A stretch of 64,000 bases of DNA. Source: Crambe crambe (Eukaryota; Porifera; Demospongiae; Poecilosclerida; Crambeidae). Both the position numbers and the translations under genes were made by a program. The stretch covers positions 1,922,001 to 1,986,000 of the forward strand of contig OZ004595.1 in NCBI GenBank assembly GCA_963924555.1, written 5' to 3'. Positions 14,490 through 32,410 of the stretch are shown here, one piece after another (the first letter of the stretch is position 1; each line of letters starts with the position of its first letter). The notes beneath the pieces are model-generated. The model was not told the origin of the DNA. It worked only from the letters and a program-made list of their open reading frames with translations, and did not search any database.

Positions 14490-17400
14490 TCAATCATTAG
14501 TGTGTGCATAGCGTCCCCTTAAGTTTCTTGCCTTGTCTTTCAAGCTCACACTGTTCCGACTCGGATGAAAGGGGTAAGATTTGAGGATGGCCACCCAGCT
14601 TCCCCATCCAAATCTTTTGATTCCCGCTTCAAGGAATTCCGTCTCCTGCGTCGAAAACATGACTTTTCTCTTTGGAGATGGCCTATAATTGGGTGCTGGG
14701 GCTCGTGGAGCAAAGTGCTCCCTTGGTTTCAGTGGAAGTTGAGGGAGTCGATCTGTGGAGATAATGATAGGGTGTCATTTTTTGTTGTAACAATCCTTTA
14801 CCAATGCATCAGAAGGCATACAAATTGGTAAAGGGTTGTCAGCACAGCAGTATGTCCCACCTGACCTGGTATGTTAGAAGGTGGAGTCATACACGCTGAT
14901 TCATCAAAGTTGTCATATATTGCAGCAAGATTCACATCTGGAGTCCTGCAAGAGAGAGAAGAATCATTACTTGTTACTCTGTTCCCAATGGCCAATAGCC
15001 TATCTTGGGGCGAGCATAGTCAATGATCTTTATTACAACAGGGTTTCACTTACAATTTTTTCTTACGGCTGGGAGTGACTTTTGAAGAAGAGATGGTTTC
15101 TACTTCCTTCGGAGAAGCATAACCACTGGTTCCTTCCTTTGTTTCCTTCATCCTCGGACTGGTCCCCACCTTTGTTACTGTCTCCCTTGGAGAAGCATGA
15201 GCACTCGTCCCCACCTTCCTCACAGAGAGAGCATTGTTGATCCCTGTGTCTCCCTCCTCACTCTCACTGGGGACATAGTCATCATCGACCACGGAAATCT
15301 CTAAGTCACTCTCACTGGACTCTTCAACTGCTACAGACATAGCACTTTCCGATCTGGTCTTCTTATTGTTAGAGGCAATTGTATCACTGGAAAAAAACTC
15401 ATCATCACTGGATAACCTGAGTGTTAAAGGCTTATATCTGGTTGCTGTGCGTGTGATATTGCTGGAGATTTTTGGATTGACAGAAGAAAGTCTTTCGTCC
15501 TCCTCACTACCACTCGATTTCTTCTGAAGTGCAGATGATTTAAGTACAGCAACTCTTCTTGAGCCAGCCTTTTTATATGCCATGGTATCACTGCATGATG
15601 TACCATCTTCACTGCTACCACTAGCTGCTTTAGACCTAGTCGTCCTTGGCTTAATTTTCTCTGAGACTTTGCCAGACACTCGATTTTCATCACTCAATTC
15701 TAGCATTCTTGAGCCAGCCTCTTTATGTGCCATAGTGCCACTGTTGCTATCTCCGCCACTTGACTTACTCTTTCCCTCAACTTTCTTCGACAAATGCTCA
15801 TCTTCACTCAATTCTAGTTTTCTTGCTCTCCTGGGGCTAGGGCCGACCTTCTTTTCATTGCCGGAAGAGTTTTCTTTTTCACTCCTGCTAGAAGGTCCAG
15901 TTTTTGCTGACCTGGCACGTTTGGACTTAATAACCGTTGATGACACAGCTTCCATTTCTGCTTGACTTTTTGATCCTTCACTTTCGCCACTCGATTCTAG
16001 CTTTCTTGCTCTCCTGGGGCTAGGACCGACCTTCTTTATATCAATTTCATTGCTGGAAGAGTTTTCTTTTGCACTCCTGCTAGAAGGTCCAATTTTTGCT
16101 GACCTGGCACGTTTGGACCTAACGACCACACTTGACGACACAGCTTCCATTTCTGCTCCACTTGACTTTGATCCTCCACTTTCGTCACTCGATTCTAGCA
16201 TTCTTGCTCTCCGGGGGCTAGGACCGACTTTCTTTATACCAATTTCATTGCTGGATGAGTTTTCTTTTTCACGCCGTCTAATTTTTGCTGATCTGGCACC
16301 TTTGGACCTAGTACCCACACTTGGTGACTCAGCTTCTTCACAGCTACTTGATTTAATACTTCTTGATCCTCCACTTTCGTTACTTGATTCTAGCAATCTT
16401 GCTCTCCTGGGGCTAGCCTTCTTCTCTACTGTTACGACATCAATCTCATTGCTTGACGAGTTTTCCTTCTCACTCCCACTACTAGAGAGGCCAATTTTTG
16501 CCGACCTGGCACCTTTGGACATAGAAGCTTCTGTTTCCATCTCACTGCCACTCAATTTAGCATTTTTCAACTTATTATGTGCAGAAATAGCAGACTCACT
16601 CAATGACGATAATTTAATTATCATGCTTTTAAAGTCTGTAGTCATCTTCTTGGACTTTCGCACACCAACAGTGCTACTGGAATCTTTCGGTTCTTTCACC
16701 ATCTTGGTTCTTGGCTGTTCAAATGCCTCATTCGATAGGCCATCCCAGGATACTGTTTTCTTTGTGTGGTCAGAACTGCTTAAAGGCCACTGAGAAGCAG
16801 CAGTGGTGGCATAGGTGGCGGCGACGGCAGTGGTGGTGATGGTAGTGGCAGCAGTGCCGGTGGCGGCGGTGGCAGCGGTGGTGGTGGTGGTGGTGGTGGC
16901 AATGGCATACTTACGGTTACCACAAAGTCTAGTGCTGCGTCTTGCTACTGTATAAGACTTCTTCTTATAGCTGCGTTTTTTCACTTCTGGTTTAACATAC
17001 TTCTCCCTAGCAGCCTTACTGACCTTTGGGTCTTCCCTATGTACAGGGGAGGGGAGAGAGAGAGTCTGGATCAACACATACCCTCATACATACCCTCAAT
17101 GTGGACTCAAAAATGGACAACATTGTGTACTTTTATTCTATAACTCACTGGATTAATTTCCTACACTTAGGGCATGGAATATTATAATAATCTGCCATGA
17201 TTCATTCAATTCAACGTTGTTAACGTTATTCAACGCTCTACTGAGCATGCACACAGTCACACAGTTGTAATTTCCATGGCAACTGATTGACTTCTACATA
17301 CAGCATAGCAAGCGATGAGCTTATCCAAGTGCTTTGTGGCAGCTGCGCCTAGCCACTTAAATAGTCAACATGGAGCTAACCACAATAACTTATGAGCTTA

Positions 17401-17829
17401 TCTAAGTGCTTTGTGGCAGCTGCGCCTAGCCACTTAAATAGTTAACGTGGAGCTAACCACAATAACTTATTCATGAGTTGTCCAATTTGAGGCTGTTCTT
17501 GAATTTATTGCAGTCACTTTTGCATTTTACATTTGGACAACCAATTGCAATTCACTGTACAGATGCTTATATTTGTGGAACCTGGTTATAGTGGTCACCT
17601 AGGTAACTCAGGTTGAAATTTACCCAATTATGATAGAGTATTACATAGTAAAATGAGGACACTTCTACCCATTGCTTTAATAGTCTCCAGTCTCCCTTAG
17701 CTGTACTTTCAAACAGGGTGCTTATAAGCATGAGAAATTGCGAATATAATTCAATTAATGAAATAGACCCAGCCCACTTTCTTTGAAGTTCTATATCCAA
17801 ACAGGGTGGCCCGCCCTGCATTTAGTATA

Positions 17830-17865
<36 letters not shown>

Positions 17866-20765
17866 ACACTACCCTGAAACTCTAATCAGCCACTTGAGAA
17901 GTACCACAGTACAGACAGTATGTATGAATGTACCAACCATAAATCTCCCACTGGGTGAGCTTCACGACAAAAGTCGATAGGGATCATCTCAAACATTTCA
18001 GGTGGTCCTTGATTTCTTACGAAAAGGGTCACCAATTTTCGGACTTTCTGGCAAAACTTCTCACGTGAGTGCTGGTTGAAAAATAGCTTGATGTACAGCT
18101 TCATCTCTTCTTCCATTAGATGATGCGATGTTCTCTTGCCGCCTGCGATGTATTTCAGAATGTCTTTCAGCTGAGAAGACAATTCCTATGGATATTGAAG
18201 ATAATAAAGTACACTTACATAAGGTGTTATCATCATCTCTCCCCTCCCACTCCCTCACTGACAATACTCATACTAATTATAGAAATTGTCAATCAGTGCC
18301 CATTAAAATCATCTGCTGTAGTCTTCTGGTCTAGCATACTTTGTCGTGATCCAGCATTGGTGATTGATCATAAAATGCATTCCAGTACCTCTGAGCCAAC
18401 TCAATATTGTCATTCTTGACGTAGGACAGAACAATCTGAAGGAGAGAGAGAGAGAGAGAGAGATGTATTAACGATTCAGTGAGAGAGTCTCTGAGGGTAC
18501 GTACCTGACACTGAGCCTCAGAGAAGAGCCTATCCACTTGATCAAGGTATGATTTCACTTCAAGAGAGCATTGCCTGCAGTGAGCACATCATTGCTCAAT
18601 TGAAATTATCAAGTCCCAATTCAAATAAGTAAGTAATAAGCTACACAGTAGCTATGGAGAACACCTGACACTAACACTTGTACAATATTGCATACTTTTT
18701 CAATAAGATGAGCGTCTGGTGGAAGTCGTGGACGATATTAATGTCCTCCTCATCATCTTCACTGGACTCAAACCGCTGGGCCAACAATAGGAGATTCAGG
18801 ATCCTGACAAATACCACACTGTCACCAGGCTCTTCACACTCACTACAATACTCTAAAAGGAAAAGTGATACTATTATCATAGATGTCAGGAGTGGTCTTC
18901 AAAAACAATTTGTAACAAGTTAGTCTTTTAAAAGACTAGGAATGCCTCGGCACTTCAATGCAATCTTTTTTAAACATTCTAAATAATAATCACTGAGCAA
19001 CATGGCTTATTATATTGTAGTAGGCAAGGTTAGTATTTACACAGCTAGTATTCTTGCTGTTTAATGCTTTCAAACTGCCGTTTTGAATGGTTATTTTCAC
19101 GCATAGCTTATGTGTACTGGATTCTTTCATTGTTTGGAAGCCTCAGTCCTAGTTCCGAGATTCTCCTTCACCATGGCTCTCTCTTTGGCACTTCAAACGA
19201 TCACTAGTTCGTCTCTTTGGCACTTCAAACAATCACTAGTTCGTCTCTTTGGCACTTCAAACGATCACTAGTTCGTCTCTTTGGCACTTCAAACGATCAC
19301 TAGTTCGTCTCTTTGGCACTTCAAACGATCACTAGTTCGTCTCTTTGGCACTTCAAACGATCACTAGTTCGTGTACACTGCAATCTCTGTTGTTTTTAAT
19401 AGTTCACTGCTCCTTTTAGTCAGTTCTCTGGATGTCATTAAATGGGCTTGATTTGTTGGCCAAAGAAGCATCAGCACTCCCTTCGCGATGTAGAATTACC
19501 GGCATAGTGATTGCGAGCCTGAGCCTAAGTCTGTCTGTTTGTCCTTAGTACTGTAAAGCTACAGTCTAGCTAGAGATTAATGCACGTGCTCGATACGCAT
19601 CATCGCGCGTGTGCGTTAAACGTACCATTATGCATGCATGCATAGTCGCCTCCAGCACTGCGCCTTGGCACTTCGGTGCCGAGGCAAAAATGAGCCTGGG
19701 TTGTCAACAACAATGCCAGTAACCACACTCACCAGCTCCGCCCCAGTTGTGGTTTGACAGCCTTTGAAGCTATTTTGAAGCAGCATGTGAGCTGTACACT
19801 CAGCAGCACGAGTGAAGCAGCATGCAGTAAGTCAAGGCTAGAGCATGTAGCAGCACTTGTGGCTGTGCAGAATCTATGCTGAGCTAAAGCTCCCATAAGC
19901 ATTTGCTGATGTCATGACCACAGCAGCAAAAGCTAAATGTGGCAGTGTATGCACATGTGAGAATTTCATAACCAGAACTATTATGACACAGCTAGTATAT
20001 GCTCCCTCCATTAGATCCCTTGCAGTAGGTGTGGCATGAGCAGGGCTTATCATGGAAGCGGCCATGTTGGTGTACAGCATGTCTATGAGTACGAAGTACA
20101 CTGAAACTGCTAAAGGCATGTTTTCTCCGGTGCAAACGCAGACTAGCTTTGCTGAACTAGCAATAAAAACCTTTGAAAATAGATAAACTACCGAGCAGCA
20201 GCAGGAGTCTGAAGTGCAAATTAATACCTATACCTTGTTCGCTGTGCACGATAATATGTGGATATGTTAAGAAATTTACAGAAATGCTGAGTCAACTGCA
20301 AGGGGTCGAACTACTCCATCACCCACTGTTATGGCATCTCAATCTGCTTGAGGGGGTGGGCCCTAATCTAACCACGCCCAGCTGCTGATCTGGCACGATT
20401 CAAATTTGTGGGGAACCCTTACCTAACCACCAGCTACATATATCTAGCTATAGCTGCTTACCTGCAAGGATTTTCACAAAAAAGGGGGCTTGACTAAGAG
20501 GGGCGGCCTTCTCTTGCTTGAGGTACTTGAGGATGAGAAACCAACTTAAACTTTTGATATTTTCGTGCTTCATGTCCGCTGTGAAGCTCGAAGGAGCTTG
20601 CCGTATAGACGAAGCTTGCTGTATAGACGAAACTTGCTGTATAGACGAAGCTTGCTGTATAGACGAAGCTTGCTGTATAGACGAAGCTTGCTGTATAGAT
20701 GAAGCTTGCTGTATAGACGAAGCTTGCTGTATAGACAACTCGGTCTGACTCTCAGAAGTTGACAT
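14490..20765 (-). CDS. TERF: Telomeric repeat-binding factor (TRF1/TRF2 homologue): TRFH + telobox Myb
   Basis: Exons: 20462-20765 (ATG 20765), 18696-18852, 18505-18574, 18340-18435, 18021-18185, unresolved linker, 15054-17036, 14866-14945, 14490-14752. The N-terminus has about eight SSIQQA repeats. A helical block follows, from SWFLILKYLKQ through VRILNLLLLAQRF and VLSYVKNDNIELAQRYW to MKLYIKLFF. It matches the TRFH dimerisation domain (compare human VIICIKNKEFEKA). The 15054-17036 exon encodes about 660 Ser/Lys/Arg-rich residues with ~55-residue tandem repeats and Thr/Ala runs. The last exon has the telobox Myb: FLEAGIKRFGWGSW, ILKSYPF and SLKDKARNL. TRF proteins bind duplex telomere repeats and anchor shelterin. 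Phase demands extra coding of length 3n+2 between 18021 and 17036. This is either a small exon or a longer exon ending near 17900. Confidence 0.88.
15054..17036 (-). repeat. Coding tandem repeats in the TERF linker
   Basis: Within this exon four to five units of about 165 bp each encode R-S-K-x-A-R-S-A-K, KENSSSNEI and GPSPRRARxLES. A (GCC/ACC)-type triplet tract at about 16797-16905 encodes Thr/Ala runs. The repeats create long antisense open frames (for example 16050-16793 on +) that are not genes. Confidence 0.8.
17316..17469. repeat. 77-bp tandem duplication
   Basis: Two nearly identical copies starting tgagcttatc(c/t)aagtgct, in the TERF intron before the large exon. Confidence 0.9.
17740..17864 (-). 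repeat. Dispersed repeat copy C ending in a 34-nt poly(G)
   Basis: Reverse-oriented copy of the 1388-1482 family (atagacccagcccactttct to tttagtatac). It is followed directly at 17831-17864 by 34 G, equivalent to the C-run that precedes the core in copies A and B. Confidence 0.7.
18853..20461 (-). other. TERF intron 1
   Basis: A 1.6-kb intron with no recognised gene. It contains a 32-bp minisatellite at 19180-19372 and GC-richer unique sequence around 19560-19690 with a tgcatgcatgcat palindrome. Confidence 0.6.
19180..19372. repeat. 32-bp minisatellite, 6 copies
   Basis: Six almost identical head-to-tail units beginning tctctttggcacttcaaacg. Units are contiguous with no spacers, so it is not a CRISPR array. 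Confidence 0.95.
20590..20740 (-). repeat. Coding 18-bp minisatellite in TERF exon 1
   Basis: About eight 18-bp units (read on + as gctgtatagacgaagctt) encode SSIQQA, with one SSIQQV and one SSIRQA variant. The 18-bp period keeps the frame, so copy number could vary without breaking the protein. Confidence 0.9.
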
Positions 20766-20781
20766 TTCTTCTCGCTCGTTC

Positions 20782-23700
20782 CAGTCGTTACGCAACCTTA
20801 AATTTTTAATTTTTTATGACGTCATATTTGACTTGCCACGTGGGCAATTTTTTGTTGAAGAAGTGGTAGGTAGTTCTAGCCTCTCTACTCTCCTTGAGAG
20901 CATTTTTCAGTGGCCACGCTTGAAGTACCTATGCAGGAAAGCTGTAAAAACAAGCTATGTGTTTGTGGAGTGTAGATAGCTGAGCACTCTGTTTTTAATT
21001 GGGAACTTCTGTTCGATGGATCAAAGAGCTGTACTTGGGTCTCGTTGGAAAGCGCGCTCTAGGACAACATTGGAAAGCGTGCACAATTCAATAACCGGGT
21101 ATGTTAAAGATAATTATTTTAGCAGTAGATATGTCATTTTGAAGTAGATGTATAGGTGTCGAAAAATATAATCCACGAGATTTCAGAATGATAATATGTA
21201 CAGCTACAATAAATCCATGTCTTCTATAATGTCATCCTCACTTTCAATTTCAAAGTCATTAAGTTCATCTTGAAAAACGAAGTCCATAATATCATCAACA
21301 TCATGATCTCTCTCTATCTCCTCTTCAATTGACAGGTCCCTGATGGCAGATTCACTATTGTGGATGTCATTCATGGATGTGGTGTTGCAGCAGTTTGTGC
21401 ATTCGCATCCAGCTGAGCAAGAGTTTGCCTTCTTTCTACAGCTGCAGCGATTGGTCGTACATCCGGTCGCACACCTGCAACCTCTTATTAAACTCTCAAG
21501 TCTATTCCTGATGGTCTTGATGTTTTCATCAGTGTCCCACACTATAGCGAGTGAGTTGTTCTTTATGGACCATCCGTAATATGATAGTGACTCAAGTGTC
21601 ATTTCATTAAGGTGTGCTTGTCCCCACAGGTGTAGAACCCAGCAGGATCTCTTCCAGTGGAACTTTAGTGCTTCATTGGAGGCCATCATCTCATTTTCAA
21701 ACTTTGTTCTGAACCAGATGGTGTTCCTGATGTCATCAAGCCATTTATGATGCTGTTCTTCTTCAGACAAGCCCAGGTTATTGAATGTAGAGTAGTGGGT
21801 GGCAGGACATTGTGTAATAAAACCAGAAGAATGCTTTTTGAAATACACTGTACCCACTAGTCGTAGGAATGCCAAATAGCCTGACTTCCAGTTTAAGGGT
21901 AGGGTTTCAAACCCTAAGGTTCCTGAAGCAGTACTTCCAGTAATGAAGGTAGCGTACTGAAAAAAGTACCGTAGAAAAGTGGCTTTACCTATCCCACTGA
22001 AAAAGGACACATAATCACAGCCAGTACACACAAACAGCGTCTGAAGAACACGGGGTAACTCTGATGGTGTGAGCTTGCCTAGATCTGGATCAGCTTTTAA
22101 GGCCATGATCAGATTTTTTAGGTGAAGTAGTCTTAACTCTCTGGCACTATAAAGGCTGATTTGTGCAATTATGTCCTTTGTTTTGGAACATTGGAGGCCA
22201 ATTCCAATCATGTAGACATCAGTGTCTGGTGTGATCAGAAGTATCCTGTGGTATCTCGTCATACATGCATGTAACCATAGCCTGGTGTCAGCTTCTTCTG
22301 CATTGCATGTGTAGGTGGGGTCTGGCTGTGGTATGTTTTCTTCAGTCACAAACCATGCTTCATCACTGAATGTGCCTGCCACATACAAGGACTGATTGGC
22401 TGTAAGGAAGGTACTAGAATGATGAAGAAAGTAGTGTCCAAGGAACTTTACTAGGTTTCGTTTGCATGTCCGGCAATTAAGAATGTTTTCCCTCCATTTC
22501 CTGGGGACTATTTCTGCATCCTTGGTCATGTTCATGCACACATGATTGGTCGAAATTGTGGATAGTGCATCTCTTCTATGTTGCTCAAAATATTTTGGTG
22601 TATTTTGTAACCTTCCAGGGTTGTCAAAAATGACATGAACCTCCAGGCTGCCTTTGCAGAACTGTGGAAAAATAAATCTTCTCAGTAGAAAGGAACCATA
22701 ATCAGCAAGTGTCTTGTGGTGGCTGAGAGGGTACGTATTTATTAAAAACATACCCTCCAGCAAAGAGCACTGAGGTTTCCAGCCTGAAGGCAAATGATGG
22801 GTGATTATTGGTGGGGAGCACTTTTTATATCTGGTTTCCAGGGATTTTGTGAAGTAACTCTTTTTCCCACTGAGTGGATTTCCTTCATTATCACTAAGTG
22901 ACAGTGGATATTGCACGAGCTGTTCAACTGGCCTGTCTATTTGTTGGCCAGTTTTTTGAGAGAAGAGGAGCTTTCTTTTGATTGCTGTTAGCACTAATTT
23001 TTGATCCCTTTCCAGTTGTGATACCTTTCTTTTATTGGATTTTCTTGTTGTGAAGGTTTCCAGTGCTCTCCTTCTATTAGGTGCTTCAGTGCTTGGTGTT
23101 TGTAGAGTGAAATAGGAAATTCTGAGTTGGTATTCTTCTTCACCAATTTTTCGAAAGTTTAGGAGATGGTGGTACTTTGAATCTTGTGCTTTCTCTCCTG
23201 TAAATGGGTTGATCAATCCTCTGTTTTCATTGGCCTCTAGGAAGGAAATATCAGAGAGGGCACAAATCTGTGACTTTATATTAGATTCAATTTTAGTATC
23301 CACATTTTTGGTTGAGTACACTGATTCTACTTCACTGGTATTTTTTTCTTTTTCAGGAAAGAGCTCCTTATAGAGGTGTTCAAATGCAATGGTTCTGTAT
23401 ACGAGGTAAGATGCAGTTCTGTTGATGTAATCTTCAGATGGTTTTACCACTGCCTGTTTGCATTGCCTATTAATTAACATTTCGTGGGCCTCGTCAATCC
23501 CAACAGAGTGCCATTCCCTCCCACTGATGTTGGCTACAAAGGCTCCTTGGGTAAACATAAGCAGCACTTCTTCTGGTAAATTCAGTAGATCATGGGTGTG
23601 ATTTGAAATCACCTTTTGGTAGGTGGGGTGATCAAATGCCGTGAATAGAGGAGCCATGGTCTTCATGCTGTTCATCCTCAAAGCCCAGTTGCCACTACGT

Positions 23701-26700
23701 ATGGCTAAGTAGAGGCCAACATAAGCCATGGCATCCTCAAAGACGAACTGAACCCAAAATTTCCAGGTGTTATCTTTGTTAGCCATACTTTGCAAGTACT
23801 TCTCAAACTCAGAGAACATTACTTTTTTGTCCTCTGCTAAGGTGGCTAGTGTCACTAGAGAAGTATTTATTTTGTGCCTAAAGTTTTCCTCCTTTGCTGA
23901 CTCGGTGTTATTGAGGATATCTATCACCCTGTTTAGGAGGCTTGTTTGTGATCCTGCTGTTGTCAATGTACTTGTGTTACATGTTGTAGAATCAGTACAT
24001 GTGGTAGCCACAGTGAATGTAGATGGTGGTCTGGCACATGAGGTAGCTACAGTAGATGCAGATGGAGGTTCAATAGCTCTAGTAGGCATAGTAGATGTAG
24101 ATGGAGGTTCTGTAGCTATAGTAACCACAGTAGATGTAGATGGTGGTCCAGCACATGCAGTAGCCATGGTAGATGCAGATGGAGGTTCGGTAGCTCTAGT
24201 TGCAGAAGGAGGTTCAGTAGTAGCCACTGTTGATGTCACATGTGTGGAAGCAGATGGAGCAGTACCAAGAAATGAGTGCAGCATTGCTCTGTATAGTGCC
24301 TCCCAGGCTTCCAGAATGAAGTTATGGGTTCTTTTGAATTGGCTACATTCTTTGATAGCAGCCACTGGGTAGCCAGCTACCTCAGCGAGTGATTTCAGCC
24401 CGGCATCAAAGTATGGCTTCATTAAAGCCACCTGATAATTCATGAGCATATGCCAGTCCCCTGGGTAGGGGATCAACCAGCCCAACTCATCACTGTACTC
24501 CAATTTTAGAGACTGCAACAACTCATAAATTTTGGCATCCCCTTCAACAACCAGATATTTGTTGCCCGTAGCTGTGTGTATAAACTCGTCATAAAGGTCA
24601 TGGAGCATGGACATTAGAGTGTCTTTGCTGTCAGCCTTGCAATCCATAATATTAAGATAGAAAAAGTTTGATTTTTCTGTATGTGTGGCCCTGGTGCATG
24701 AGAAGTAATCCTGTATACTTATTACTCTCTTGTCTGGTTGCTTGGCTGCAACTGCTACTTTCTGAAGCATATACATGTGCAGTTCACTCTTCAGCTCCAT
24801 CACTGCAGACTTCTCCTGATCGTTAGGCAGAAAATCTGAGAGTGAAAGAAGTCGACTTTCCTTTTGGGCAGTGGCACTCATATGGAAGAAGGGGTGCTGG
24901 TTGCTAGAACTTTCAGCACGCAATTGTGAGTTATACTCGGTGCCTGTTCGAGGCTTTGGCTGCCTTTTAGCAGTTGGTCCTGCAGTATATGATGGTAATC
25001 TTTTCCTACCTAGTCTGTGAGTGATGTCATGGTTACAACTAGGTTGAGCAACTGAGGAACAACTGCTATGCACAGCAGCCGTATTCAGTAGGGTATGATC
25101 ACTGAATGCTGGTTCAATAGACAGTGCAAGTGATGGTAGAGGCTGAACAACCTGAATAGATGTTCCATGCCAGCTGCTGTTATTTGAGCCTTTACTGACT
25201 CTTGCAAAGCTGTGTTTGAAGTCGATATTGTCGGCTGATATGATAATGAAGCTCTCACTATCTAGACACTTGATCTTAAGTTGCTCTCAATCTGTGTGCT
25301 TCTGTTGAATGTGCCTAGCCAGTGTGTCCATTGAGGCACATACGCCAAGCTGGTTCAGAAACTTGATGAGTGTGGCTGATCCCCCCTGGCCATCTATGAT
25401 GGAGGTGAGTAAGGTATGCAGGGGTATTGTGTAGTTGTCATTAATGCAAAACATCACAGAACAGAAGATACAGAACCTCCTCATAAGTTTAGTATGTTTG
25501 GTCTTGGGTGAAACTTTTGTTGTATCTTTTTTCTCCCATGGACTCGTCGTTAAAAGGCAGATGGCTTCCCACAATATGGGATCAATATCAGCAATGAGCT
25601 CTTTTATGGTTGTATCGGATAATTCAAAATTGTGTTTTTTGTTACTTATTAAAAATGAGTTGATATGTGAGCATGCTCTTTGATTAATTTCTGTGAGTAA
25701 TTCACGTCTGGTGTGCTCTGTATGCTCAATACTCGTGCTGGTGGTGGTATGCTTGATTTCATTTTCAGGGACCTGTTGTGCTTTTCGTACTTTCCATAGT
25801 GCTTGAGATAGGGGTTGAGATAAATCACTGCCAGATCTAAATATAAGTGTGCCGAACTTTTTAACTTTGCATGTGTATTTCATGTGGTGCTGTAAATTGG
25901 TGGTTAAAGTGCTAAGGATAAGTTGTGGTGAAACAAGTTTGGGTATATCAATTTCCTCCTGTAGTTGGTGTGCTAATTTCGTAGCAGCAGTGGAGAACAT
26001 GTCCTGGATGTCTGGAAGCAGGAGAGCATTCCCCTGAAGTAGTTCCTTTGCCACAACTACAGTAATGGTTTTTAGTGAGGATTCTACCAGTTCTTCCACT
26101 GTGTGCACTGTGTTATGTACGTTACTTGATAATTTGATGATAATACCGTGTAGATCACTATCCTTGCTAATAGTTTTTTCTTCTTGTATAATAAATAAGT
26201 GTGAACGATAACATGTATAACATACTTTATCCTGTTGTTTTATGGTGCCTTCAAAATTGGTGTGTTGGAATAAATGTTGTTGTATTAGGTTAGGTTGGGG
26301 GCATAGTTTGGGGTTGGAATCTCTGCGGAGTGCTGTCCCACAAGTGACACAATGTCTTTGTACGGGGTGCAATTTTTTATATACCATATGGTAGTGATGT
26401 TTGCAGAGTGGTGTAGGGATTGGGATGGGCGAAACTTTACTCTTTAATCCTAAACCTCTAAGTACCGATTCCGTTTGTCCTTGTAATGAGGAAAACACTA
26501 CTTGTTTGCACTCGTCGATGCAACAGGTTGTTTGGCTGGTTGTTAGCAACCACCTAGGTGTATGGCTAGGATCTGTAAGTACCCTTGTTACATCCCTTCT
26601 GCAGGTTTGACAGATTACTCCATCATCAGGGACATCAAGGCTTGATATGTACCTGTAAGCCTCTACATTTTTCCACTTGGATGGTGTGCTCAGATGGACT

Positions 26701-27398
26701 TTTCCATGGCAGAGGTAGCAAGCTTCTGTGAGGCTGGTGGTCTGCTCTGTCATTGCACTATAACTATAATGTATTAGTACACTGATAATTTATTTATCAC
26801 TTTTTAATGATAAAATATTACCATGTATATTAGTTTGTTCCTTCTCTGATCTGTTACCACACTTAGCAGCGGTTGAAATACTAAGTAATAGGATTGTTTA
26901 CCTACTTATCAACCACATACAAGTATAAACCACAAGCACACTTACCTTAACCAATTTCAGCTGCACAGTGAATGCAGCTGGACTTTGCACGCGCTTAAGT
27001 ACATTGCTGCCGAGCGTGCACAAGTCCATACTTGGATCATTGTAAGCTAGGGATGTCAGAATGGTGCTGGAGAAAGTAAAGCTTTAGATCTGTGTCGGAA
27101 AATATTATACCACGTTAGTTAGTGCATCCTTTCAAAACAGGTATGTTGCATGTTTGGTGCCCGTGCAAGTGGATTTTGGCAGTTGTAAGCGATTAAGTGC
27201 GTTATTAGTGTACTAGGAAGGTTGTGTGTCCTCGCTAACAAATTTCAAGTCCAAGAATGCACAGGTAACGAAATGAGAAGACGTTTTCTAGACCTGCTGT
27301 TTTGATTCATTGTGCACCTACGGCAAGAATTGACATTTCCGGTAAAATTAAATTTCAATGGGGCCCAATTGACTTCCGGTTTGGTTGCGTAACGACTG
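20782..27398 (-). mobile_element. Academ-like DNA transposon, 6617 bp, between TERF and PINX1
   Basis: The ends are exact 16-bp inverted repeats: CAGTCGTTACGCAACC at 20782-20797 and its reverse complement at 27383-27398. They are flanked by the 4-bp direct repeat GTTC (20778-20781 and 27399-27402). The interior holds one very long minus-strand frame (21204-26753) with a transposase-like core and an XPG/FEN1-type nuclease. A 3-4-bp duplication together with an encoded XPG nuclease is what I remember of the Academ superfamily; the family name is inference, the TIR and TSD are seen. Intact ends and a nearly intact frame suggest a fairly recent insertion. It separates the TERF start codon (20765) from the PINX1 start codon (27505). 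Confidence 0.85.
21204..26753 (-). CDS. Transposon protein: Zn-finger-like N-terminus, candidate DDE core, XPG nuclease, CXC cluster; one in-frame TGA
   Basis: One frame of 1849 codons runs from ATG 26753, broken only by TGA at 25287-25289 (codon 489). The frame reopens at once without shift, continuing with SFIISADNIDF and SSWHGTSIQVVQPLP before the first later start-like codon. Codons 1-488 hold Cys pairs (CYLCHGK, CQTCRRD, CVTCGT, CYTC). A candidate DDE core has VEGDAK (about codon 739), a D-x-x-H type PGDWHM (766-768) and GIDEAHE (1087-1091). An XPG/FEN1-like nuclease follows: VIFD (1377), AEEADTR (1485-1491), TPDTDV (about 1510) and the helix-hairpin GCDYVSFFSGIGKATF (1578-1593). A CXC cluster (CRCATGC, CSC, CECTNC) lies at 1759-1789, then an acidic tail. 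About codons 830-915 are TEPPSAST-like repeats. The catalytic assignments are mine. Confidence 0.75.
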
Positions 27399-27402
27399 GT
27401 TC

Positions 27403-27504
27403 TCGCGCGCTACTCATTCAAAGTTACTTCAAAATTACATTTTCTTACGGTTAATTTGGTGACCACGTGGTGGGTCGGTTAGGGGTGTGGCGTGGCAGGT
27501 TAGG
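27403..27504. promoter_or_regulatory. PINX1 promoter-proximal region, formerly shared with TERF
   Basis: The 102 bp between the transposon's right TSD and the PINX1 ATG contain tcgcgcgc at 27402-27409 and an E-box palindrome inside gaccacgtggtg (about 27460-27471). With the element and one GTTC copy removed, it joins the last 12 bp upstream of the TERF ATG, giving a 118-bp interval between the two start codons. Confidence 0.65.
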
Positions 27505-28789
27505 ATGCTTGCCGAGAAGAGGGAGAAAGTGAAATGGAGTCAAGATCCCAGAAACTGTAGATGGAGCCGAGGTATATTATTGGTGTGCTGAGTTAGCTTG
27601 ACTACACTGTTCTTCGACACAGATAAGTCCAAGTATGGTTACCGCATGCTTGAACGGATGGGATGGACTGAGGGCAAAGGGTTAGGAACAAATGAAAGCG
27701 GAGATACCACGCATGTTAAGATTTCCAAGAAGGATGACTGCAGAGGTGTGTTACTATAGTTACAGAAGCCACATCAAAGGAAGAAAACCAGGGGAAGGAC
27801 AAAGAAAGGAGCAATTTAATAATTTTATCAATTGCAGGGGTAGGGTGTAAGAGGGGAAGAGATGAGGAATGGCTCGAACACCAGGACACCTTTGACAAGT
27901 TATTGTCTGACCTCAATGCCCGGCAGTGTAATGGTGGGGCTGTCCCCACTACTAATCAGCAACCAGATGAGCAAGCTGAAGGAGGAAGAACTCTAGTGGA
28001 CAATGCTGTGGAATCCAAGAAGCTAGTGTGAGGTTATCATTGTAGATATGGGGATGGAGAGAGTTAGAGCAGATATAGCGAATGATCAAAGAGTCCTAAA
28101 CCCTCAAATAACCTGCAGTCAGGTAACCATCTCCCTGTAGTTCCTCCTGTTTTTGTTTTTGTTTTTGTTTTTTGTTTTTTTCCATCTGGTGTACTGTATT
28201 CTTGATACATGTATTATAATGATACATCTGCAGGTATAAACGTTTCCTTCACAGCAAAGATTTGTCAATGCAGAGCTCGGAGGATTTAGATTGTGTCTTG
28301 GGAAGGAAGAAAAGAAGAAAACCTTCCATTTCGAAGCAAGTACGTATGTATGCACGAGTCACTTGTATCCTCCTCTAGTCTGTGATCTACAATTCCCAAC
28401 AACAAATTCCACGTTTCTTTGTTAGACACATAAACAATTTTATCCCACAAACACCCATGTAGCAGGACTTTTACTATTCACACACCAGCTCCTCCCTCCT
28501 TCTCCCTGGTCACCCCCATGGCCCACCTAATTTCAGATCAACTGAAATCAACACTTCAGTTTTTCATGAAACTCGGCCCTTACTGTTATAGGAACTTGAT
28601 GTGAAGGGGACTGTGAAGGACACGCCCACAGGGACTGTGAAGGACACTCCCATGGGGACTGTGCAGGACACGCTCACAACCTCACATGGAATCACCACTG
28701 TCACAAAGACCCAGAGTGTCCAAGAATACTTTTCTATGAAGATGCAAGCCAAGAGAAGTAGTACCACTAAGAAGAAAGCTAAGAAGTAG
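27505..28789 (+). CDS. PINX1: PIN2/TRF1-interacting protein PINX1 (G-patch protein)
   Basis: Exons 27505-27571, 27623-27745, 27838-28027, 28234-28339 and 28592-28789 join in phase to 227 residues (human 328). The N-terminus MLAEKREKVKWSQDP matches the human opening. Exon 2 is the G-patch: YGYRMLERMGWTEGKGLG. Then come DEEWLEHQDTFDKLLSDLN, a YKRFLHSKDLS...DLDCVLG block typical of PINX1, and a QEYFSMKMQAK motif close to the C-terminus. PINX1 is a nucleolar protein that works in pre-rRNA/snoRNA processing and, in vertebrates, binds TRF1 and telomerase. The protein ends 14 residues after QEYFSMKMQAK, so the long Lys-rich telomerase-inhibitory tail of the human protein is missing. A poly(A) signal AATAAA lies at 28887-28892. 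It is divergent from TERF, with the transposon between. Confidence 0.95.
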
Positions 28790-29349: not shown

Positions 29350-30837
<1,488 letters not shown>

Positions 30838-30839
<2 letters not shown>

Positions 30840-32410
30840 GCTCGACCTTCGAATATTCGAACTAGCAAACAATATTGACGATACCTTACCATATCCTATT
30901 GAGATGGAAGATGGTAAGGAGGAAGGTTTTATAGTAAAGAAAAAAGATGATGTAGATGATGTTATAACTCCCAAAGAAATATCAGCCAAGGATGGAAGAA
31001 GAAAAAGATTTACAGGAACCCAAAGAAGTAGTGCCAACAACCCTACAGAAACTTCACAAGACATAGTTCCTAAAAAGACCAAGATACCAAGGAGAAAAAT
31101 AGCCAATCAGATTCCCGGTGATATACTGGAGAATCCGGACCTGAATTCTGCCATTTCAGTTTTGCCATCAAATTATAACTTTGAGATCCACAAGACGATT
31201 TGGAGAATCCGACAGAATGAGTCCAAGCGAGTAGCACTTCAGTTTCCCGAGGGTTTACTCATGTTTGCATGCACCATTGCTGATATTGTGGAGAAATTTA
31301 GTGGAGCTGAGACCATCATCATGGGAGATGTTACATACGGGGCGTGTTGTGTGGATGATTTCACTGCTCGTGCTCTTGGGGCAGACATGATGGTTCATTA
31401 CGGACACAGTTGTCTTGTTCCCATCAACACCACCTCCATTAAGATGCTGTATGTGTTTGTGGATATCAAAATAGACAACCAACATGTGATTGATACAATA
31501 AGGTAAGATTAAAGATCCTGAATTGTATACCAAAAGAAGCATCAAATGACATTATTTGGTGAAGTACATTTTCTAGTTGAGCACTAGTCCCTTCTCATGA
31601 GGTGAAAGCTGGACTACTTCTCTCTCTTGTCCTCCTCATATGTATCTCTCTTCCTCCCTCTCTCCTGAATACAATGATTGATATCTTTTCCTCGTCCCCA
31701 GGTTTAACTTCAAAAATGGTTCTCATATTGCACTTGTCAGCACGATCCAGTTCGTGGCAGCTCTGCAAAGCATTCAGCAACTCCTTACCAGTGAGTACAG
31801 TGTCACTGTACCTCGCTCACATCCTCTCTCTCCAGGAGAAATCTTAGGCTGTACATCCCCGAAACTTTCAGCTGAAATTGAAGCTGTGATCTACGTAGGA
31901 GACGGCCGATTCCATTTAGAGTCTATTATGATAGCAAATCCTAAACTTCCCGCTTATCGCTACGATCCATACAGCAAGGTTTTCTCTCAGGAGCACTATG
32001 ATCATGAGATGATGCAGCAGACAAGAAGAGATTCAATTATGGAGGCTTCGACTGCTAAACGATTTGGACTGATCCTTGGAACATTGGGAAGACAGGGAAG
32101 CCCAAAGATTCTGGATTTCCTCAAAGATTCCATGGCACAGTTAGGAATCAGCTATATTGTCGTATTGCTGTCAGAAATCTTCCCAGAGAAGTTGAAATTG
32201 TTCAAAGATGTGGATGCCTGGGTGCAAATAGCATGTCCAAGGCTGTCGATAGATTGGGGGACTGCTTTTGAGAAGCCTTTACTCACTCCCTATGAGGCAG
32301 CTGTGGCCCTCAAGATTACTAACTGGAAGGAGGAGGAGAATTACCCTATGGATTTTTATGCTACTAACAGTCTTGGACCATGGACAGTGAATAATGTAGT
32401 TCACAGGTGA
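30838..32410 (+). CDS. DPH1: Diphthamide biosynthesis protein 1
   Basis: Two exons, to 31502 and from 31702 to 32410. Starting at ATG 30904 gives 435 residues (human 443); an in-frame ATG at 30838 would give 457 but overlaps the NTMT1 start, so 30904 may be the real one. DPH1 with DPH2 forms the 4Fe-4S enzyme that transfers the 3-amino-3-carboxypropyl group of S-adenosylmethionine to a histidine of EF2. The conserved core is easy to see: [51 protein letters not shown] and HYGHSCLVP. Then follow [39 protein letters not shown] and [11 protein letters not shown]. The three cluster cysteines fall in GACCVD, LGCTSP and IACPRL. An AATAAA begins 2 nt after the stop. Confidence 0.96.

Follow-up and report, generated by a model that had tools for sequence, protein, structure and literature searches.

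The question raised by this locus is whether a TRF-type telomere gene and PINX1, which now lie on either side of a DNA transposon, were once close neighbors with a common promoter, and what the insertion would mean for each of them. The window, i.e., the whole 64,000-nucleotide stretch of Crambe crambe DNA analyzed, corresponds to contig C18:1922001-1986000 of a 143.1-Mb genome assembly of 119 contigs; its genes are those of an animal, as expected for a sponge. The start codons of the two genes face each other in the window, with the ATG of the TERF-like gene at 20765 on the minus strand and that of PINX1 at 27505 on the plus strand. When the transposon and one copy of its GTTC target-site duplication (TSD) are removed, the resulting empty site leaves 12 + 106 = 118 bp between the ATGs. 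The TRF-type Myb gene and PINX1 were formerly a tight divergent pair with ATGs 118 bp apart, and their present separation of approximately 6.7 kb is owing to the transposon. The first-pass annotation had proposed this head-to-head pair, the 6617-bp element with its GTTC duplication between the genes, the gap of 118 bp after its removal, and its position 12 bp upstream of the TERF ATG; all of these agreed with our analysis, and the coordinates of the ATGs and the element were exact. Overall, what is observed here is real and young. The features concerned are as follows.

14493..20765, minus strand: TERF-like gene, an eight-exon model built from open frames with GT/AG sites
20595..20736, minus strand: 18-bp coding tandem repeat of approximately 7.9 copies (SIQQAS), right after the first ATG; next in-frame Met at 20573
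20766..20777, no strand: former intergenic DNA on the TERF side, 12 bp
20778..20781, no strand: left copy of the TSD, GTTC
20782..27398, minus strand (transposase frame, in the sense of TERF): DNA transposon of 6617 bp, recognized by terminal inverted repeats (TIRs), TSD and multiple copies
20782..20797, no strand: left TIR, 16 bp, perfect, CAGTCGTTACGCAACC
20817..20842, no strand: cAMP-response element (CRE) TGACGTCA at 20817-20824 and E-box CACGTG at 20837-20842, in the TERF-side end of the element, 52-77 bp upstream of the TERF ATG
21204..26789, minus strand: transposase frame with DUF6589 within a 1359-aa part; one in-frame stop in the window copy
27383..27398, no strand: right TIR, 16 bp, perfect
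27399..27402, no strand: right copy of the TSD, GTTC
27399..27504, no strand: former intergenic DNA on the PINX1 side (106 of the 118 bp), including CACGTG (27464-27469)
27505..28789, plus strand: PINX1, 227 aa, five exons (27505-27571, 27623-27745, 27838-28027, 28234-28339, and 28592-28789)

The transposon and its copies

Perfect 16-bp TIRs and a TSD on both sides delimit the element. When the left-junction stretch was searched against the C. crambe genome, 33 matches were obtained, comprising the window itself, two host tandem-repeat matches beside it, and at least 30 others, some of them short. Ten of the other copies were fetched, and an identical 4-bp TSD was found in all seven that could be tested, i.e., those with both exact TIRs inside the fetched stretch (the other three fell short of one exact end). 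A chance pair of inverted repeats was ruled out by the TSDs of these copies.

Inverted termini and a TSD of constant length place the element among the TIR DNA transposons. It resembles those with 4-bp TSDs in its 16-bp TIR, 4-bp TSD, long transposase frame, and internally deleted copies. It differs from them in that its transposase has DUF6589 (1.2e-15), which was the sole domain match bearing on the superfamily, and the element is set among them without a superfamily. No paper joining DUF6589 with a transposase was found in the open literature.

The closest copy, on contig C5 (L018, approximately 6045577-6052192), differs from the window copy by 10 mismatches and one gap in 6617 bp (99.83% identity), and its transposase frame is open for 1861 codons with no stop. 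For copy L017, which carries extra DNA and whose right end was beyond the fetched stretch, the identity is 99.3% over 5.2 kb, and copy L024 is 97.5% identical at full length. The remaining seven of the ten fetched copies matched piecewise at approximately 81-96%. Because of the near-identity of the C5 copy over the entire element, the insertion is judged to be recent. The same copy, with its open frame, suggests that the transposon family may still be active.

Probable effect of the insertion on the two genes

A shared bidirectional promoter had been considered very probable in the first-pass annotation. By analogy, the 118 bp are plausible as such a promoter, and the ATGs at the empty site lie well inside the 1 kb within which the two divergent starts of a bidirectional promoter are expected. 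CACGTG, the sequence of the G-box, is retained in the 106 bp on the PINX1 side; of 20,000 118-bp segments drawn at random from the window, 1.7% contain it. A study on the sponge Amphimedon queenslandica reports an E-box, described as “practically identical” to the G-box of plants, that is four times as frequent in bidirectional promoters as in unidirectional ones (PMC4773876). The short divergent gap with an E-box/G-box-like motif resembles these Amphimedon promoters, whereas the window gap is split by a young transposon and is known from ATGs, not from transcription starts.

The pairing by itself is probably not special. The same study puts at 45% the share of Amphimedon genes that a single core promoter could serve in divergent transcription, with nearly a third apparently transcribed in this way (PMC4773876). 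The next two genes in the window, 2 kb away, form another tight divergent pair of an NTMT1-type methyltransferase gene on the minus strand and a diphthamide-synthesis gene on the plus strand.

30837-30840, minus/plus strands: overlapping first in-frame ATGs of the NTMT1-type gene (30839) and the diphthamide-synthesis gene (30838), starts placed by frame only

Since divergent pairs are ordinary in Amphimedon and the NTMT1-type/diphthamide pair lies nearby, pairing alone does not establish co-regulation. That the two genes were functionally paired through a telomere promoter is plausible and no more.

It had also been proposed that the element could alter the expression of both genes. For TERF this is likely, but an equal effect on the two genes is unlikely because almost all of the intergenic DNA stayed with PINX1. 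TERF is the gene more likely to have been changed, as PINX1 keeps 106 bp and TERF only 12, and the transposase is co-oriented with TERF. Given this layout, such a change would come about through loss, replacement, or read-through. Between the stop of the transposase frame and TERF, the minus strand contains two copies of ATTAAA and none of AATAAA.

We consider the following account of the locus probable as a whole, with its promoter and expression parts being predictions. Before the insertion, the 118 bp would have served as one bidirectional promoter, as appears common in the compact Amphimedon genome. The transposon would then have landed very recently, just upstream of the TERF ATG. PINX1, keeping its adjoining DNA including CACGTG, would be expected to change little. 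TERF, deprived of its adjoining promoter, would start in the transposon end with its CRE and E-box, depend on transposase read-through, or show weak expression. Genome compactness, and not selection for co-expression of binding partners, would most likely account for the pairing.

Several points weigh against this account. The CACGTG motif was chosen after looking at the DNA, and it occurs 10 times in the window against 10.0 expected, by which a general enrichment of CACGTG is ruled out. The real TERF start codon may lie downstream of the SIQQAS repeat, and a start at the Met that follows it (20573) would give an ancestral gap of approximately 310 bp. Finally, the assembly contains one copy of the region, so the insertion may or may not be fixed. 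An empty allele was sought in the assembly and none was found; the promoter and PINX1 DNA had a single full match, the eight other matches being of 31-38 bp to one intron stretch.

A more specific outcome is that the transposon end acts as a new TERF promoter, perhaps a stress- or germline-responsive one, which is possible but is not what we would expect. Both the CRE and the E-box were present in 10 of the 10 distinct copies, window copy included, that match an exact 22-base left-end probe (the fetched copies L024 and L025 do not match this probe, and the other left-junction matches lie outside this count). The TERF frame is also still open. However, the two motifs are short, the candidate promoter is drawn from sequence only, and the open frame is perhaps uninformative for an insertion this young.

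Identity of the two genes and the meaning of their pairing

The exons of the TERF-like model are 20765-20462, 18852-18696, 18574-18505, 18435-18340, 18185 to approximately 17952, 17036-15054, 14945-14866, and 14752-14493. The end of exon 5 and its join to exon 6 are uncertain, with in-phase donors at, e.g., 17937 and 17904. Two regions bear on its identity.

14493..14681, minus strand: C-terminal TRF-type Myb (telobox) domain and C-terminus, recognized by solved-structure matches
17952..20573, minus strand: N-terminal region from the tail of exon 1 through exon 5, the expected but unproven place of a TRFH domain

The C-terminal telobox Myb that characterizes the TRF (TERF) family was found in the last 63 residues of the protein. 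In a search against solved structures at E ≤ 1, the top 16 of 19 matches were to TRF2, TRF1, or zebrafish Terfa, with a best value of 8.5e-9, and these were followed by 4930532D21Rik (1x58), TBF1, and a plant telomere repeat-binding protein. Pfam PF00249 scored 25.0 bits against a cut-off of 24.4, and a longer tail scored 23.3 bits, slightly under it. The protein shares with vertebrate TRF1 and TRF2 (TERF1 and TERF2) this C-terminal domain, the KDxxR core, in which the K, D, and R of the LKDKxR of TRF2 are kept, and a long linker before the domain. It differs from them in that F and A replace the first and third Myb tryptophans, one residue is inserted before helix 3, a TRFH domain was not detected, and the host telomere is CTAGGG (see below).

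Several comparisons were made for the region in which TRFH would be expected. In Pfam, no TRF match was found, and the only match was a weak one to TnpW under its cut-off; no TRF was present among six weak matches to solved structures. The hhalign probability was 0.06% against an alignment of eight mammalian TRF2 proteins, drawn from 120 listed of 696 found. The pairwise local score was equalled by 25 of 1000 shuffles and the global score by 153 of 1000. A TRF family search of the C. crambe genome gave no match, and its controls were equally silent. Protein searches with TRF-like domains yielded one nameless 675-residue protein, 99% identical and containing the linker exon, and a further search was empty. 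The TERF identity given in the first-pass annotation is therefore upheld for the Myb domain and unconfirmed for TRFH. Because TRFH was undetected and a second telobox Myb is present in the genome, the label “TRF-type” appears fair, and orthology to TERF1 or TERF2 is not proven by these comparisons.

Two further repeats were observed in the introns of this gene, namely a 32-bp tandem repeat of six near-perfect copies in intron 1 (19180-19372) and a run of 34 G at 17831-17864.

The second telobox-Myb gene, in which the domain is likewise C-terminal, is located at C19:2171505-2171663 on the minus strand (loci L083 and L084), where QLKDKYRNIKGRK is followed by a stop. Its Myb is 40% identical to the window Myb and has W, W, and Y at the tryptophan positions. 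We regard it as unlikely that this gene is the true TRF and that the window gene is another telobox-Myb gene, e.g., a TERB1-like one. The C19 Myb scores against TRF2 (4.1e-8) much as the window Myb does, the window protein lacks a detectable TRFH, and the window Myb also matches chain 1x58_A (0.0029), i.e., 4930532D21Rik, which we take to be TERB1 and which presumably has a loop length in common with the window Myb. However, the TRF2 score of the window Myb is 17.5 bits above its 1x58 score, and general Myb proteins are absent from its 19 matches, yet Myb oncoproteins and SNAPC4 are among those of the C19 Myb.

The identity of PINX1 is sound as judged from its domains. The G-patch was recognized (PF01585; 2.8e-14), and the best solved relative was yeast PXR1, at 7.1e-15 over residues 2-93. 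The protein has the N-terminal motif flanking the G-patch that is characteristic of PINX1/PXR1. In vertebrates, PINX1 binds TRF1 and contains an [FYI]xLxP motif. Unlike its relatives, the window PINX1 is short, and its 227-aa model contains neither the [FYI]xLxP TRF-docking motif nor LxP. One paper attributes this docking motif to TIN2 and TERB1 (PMC7227075). A search for PINX1 relatives gave none in genome contigs, and in viral contigs only one 39-residue match (49% identity, in a 278-kb viral record) that was judged to be due to chance.

These features also bear on the proposal that TERF and PINX1 were kept head to head by a joint telomere role and that the transposon broke a coupled pair. 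The binding of their vertebrate counterparts speaks for it, and the pairing seems unexamined in the open literature, where we found no paper joining PINX1 and TERF1 with a head-to-head arrangement or PINX1 with a bidirectional promoter. Nevertheless, selected co-regulation is improbable, given that tight divergent pairs are common in Amphimedon (PMC4773876), that the adjoining NTMT1-type/diphthamide pair is as tight, that the window PINX1 has no docking motif, and that a second telobox-Myb gene exists on C19.

CTAGGG telomeres

The telomeres that a TRF-type protein would meet were read from the assembly. Eighteen contigs (C1, C3, C5, C6, and C8-C21; 5.7-9.7 Mb each) make up 141.0 of the 143.1 Mb, and their ends were read at loci L027-L046, L055, L059-L065, and L072-L079. 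(CTAGGG)n in telomeric orientation was found at 28 of the 36 chromosome-scale contig ends and TTAGGG at none of the 36. The other eight ends showed no terminal telomere repeat; 4 kb was read at six of them, and 300 bases at the remaining two, which are the ends of C1 and C17. At the 22 telomeric ends read for 4 kb, CTAGGG accounted for 14112 of 14157 xxAGGG words and TTAGGG for one. Genome-wide, five tandem copies of CTAGGG gave 18,944 + 21,639 = 40,583 overlapping matches and five of TTAGGG gave none; three tandem TTAGGG copies occur in exactly three places, all internal. These word counts and tandem matches rule out assembly noise as the source of the CTAGGG ends. Nine small contigs, read at their starts only, showed no telomere repeat.

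Some ends had additional features. At two of the six ends read for 4 kb, the end of C10 (L036) and the start of C12 (L037), more than 500 reversed CTAGGG copies were observed slightly inside, and 10 were observed at the start of C1 (L055 and further in). These arrays reflect either misjoins at the ends of the assembled contigs or genuinely inverted telomere arrays; because of their orientation near the ends, some joins may be wrong. The end of C13 (L040) carries scattered CCCTAA/TTAGGG words, with 10 non-tandem TTAGGG words in all. The ends of C10 and C13 resemble each other in their closing sequence, which includes GGCTAATGAGCCATGGATATC (on either strand) and may be a subtelomeric repeat.

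The genome encodes a TERT RNA-binding domain. The telomerase RNA family RF00024 had no match at E ≤ 10, and five prokaryote controls matched under the cut-off. A pattern resembling the telomerase RNA template was found in 74 places against 12 for its control, which is ambiguous.

The hexamer is identical to that of human (CTAGGG)n variant repeats. In humans, according to a paper citing earlier work, CTAGGG is a minor variant that diminishes TRF1 and TRF2 binding in vitro (PMC3919612), whereas here it is the sole terminal telomere repeat found. Among the open-access papers searched, no report of such telomeres was found, whether under CTAGGG telomeres in sponges, certain other rotations of the hexamer, or the telomere repeats of demosponges. 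The CTAGGG telomere is a more surprising observation than the gene pair.

It also raises the interest of the TRF-type gene. Since weaker in vitro binding of TRF1 and TRF2 is reported for CTAGGG (PMC3919612), it becomes a question how CTAGGG ends are protected and by which telobox-Myb protein. The altered TRF-type protein together with the CTAGGG telomere provides a testable case of repeat recognition, and the recent insertion between two telomere-related genes provides a pair of natural alleles with which to ask whether splitting a divergent promoter is harmless. We suggest, as a speculative reading of these sequences, that a wholesale switch to CTAGGG was accompanied by a Myb altered with the repeat, which has lost two of three core tryptophans and gained a residue by the DNA-reading helix, and by a transposon that uncoupled the gene from PINX1. 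If this were true, the telomere repeat, its reader, and the regulation of that reader would be changing together.

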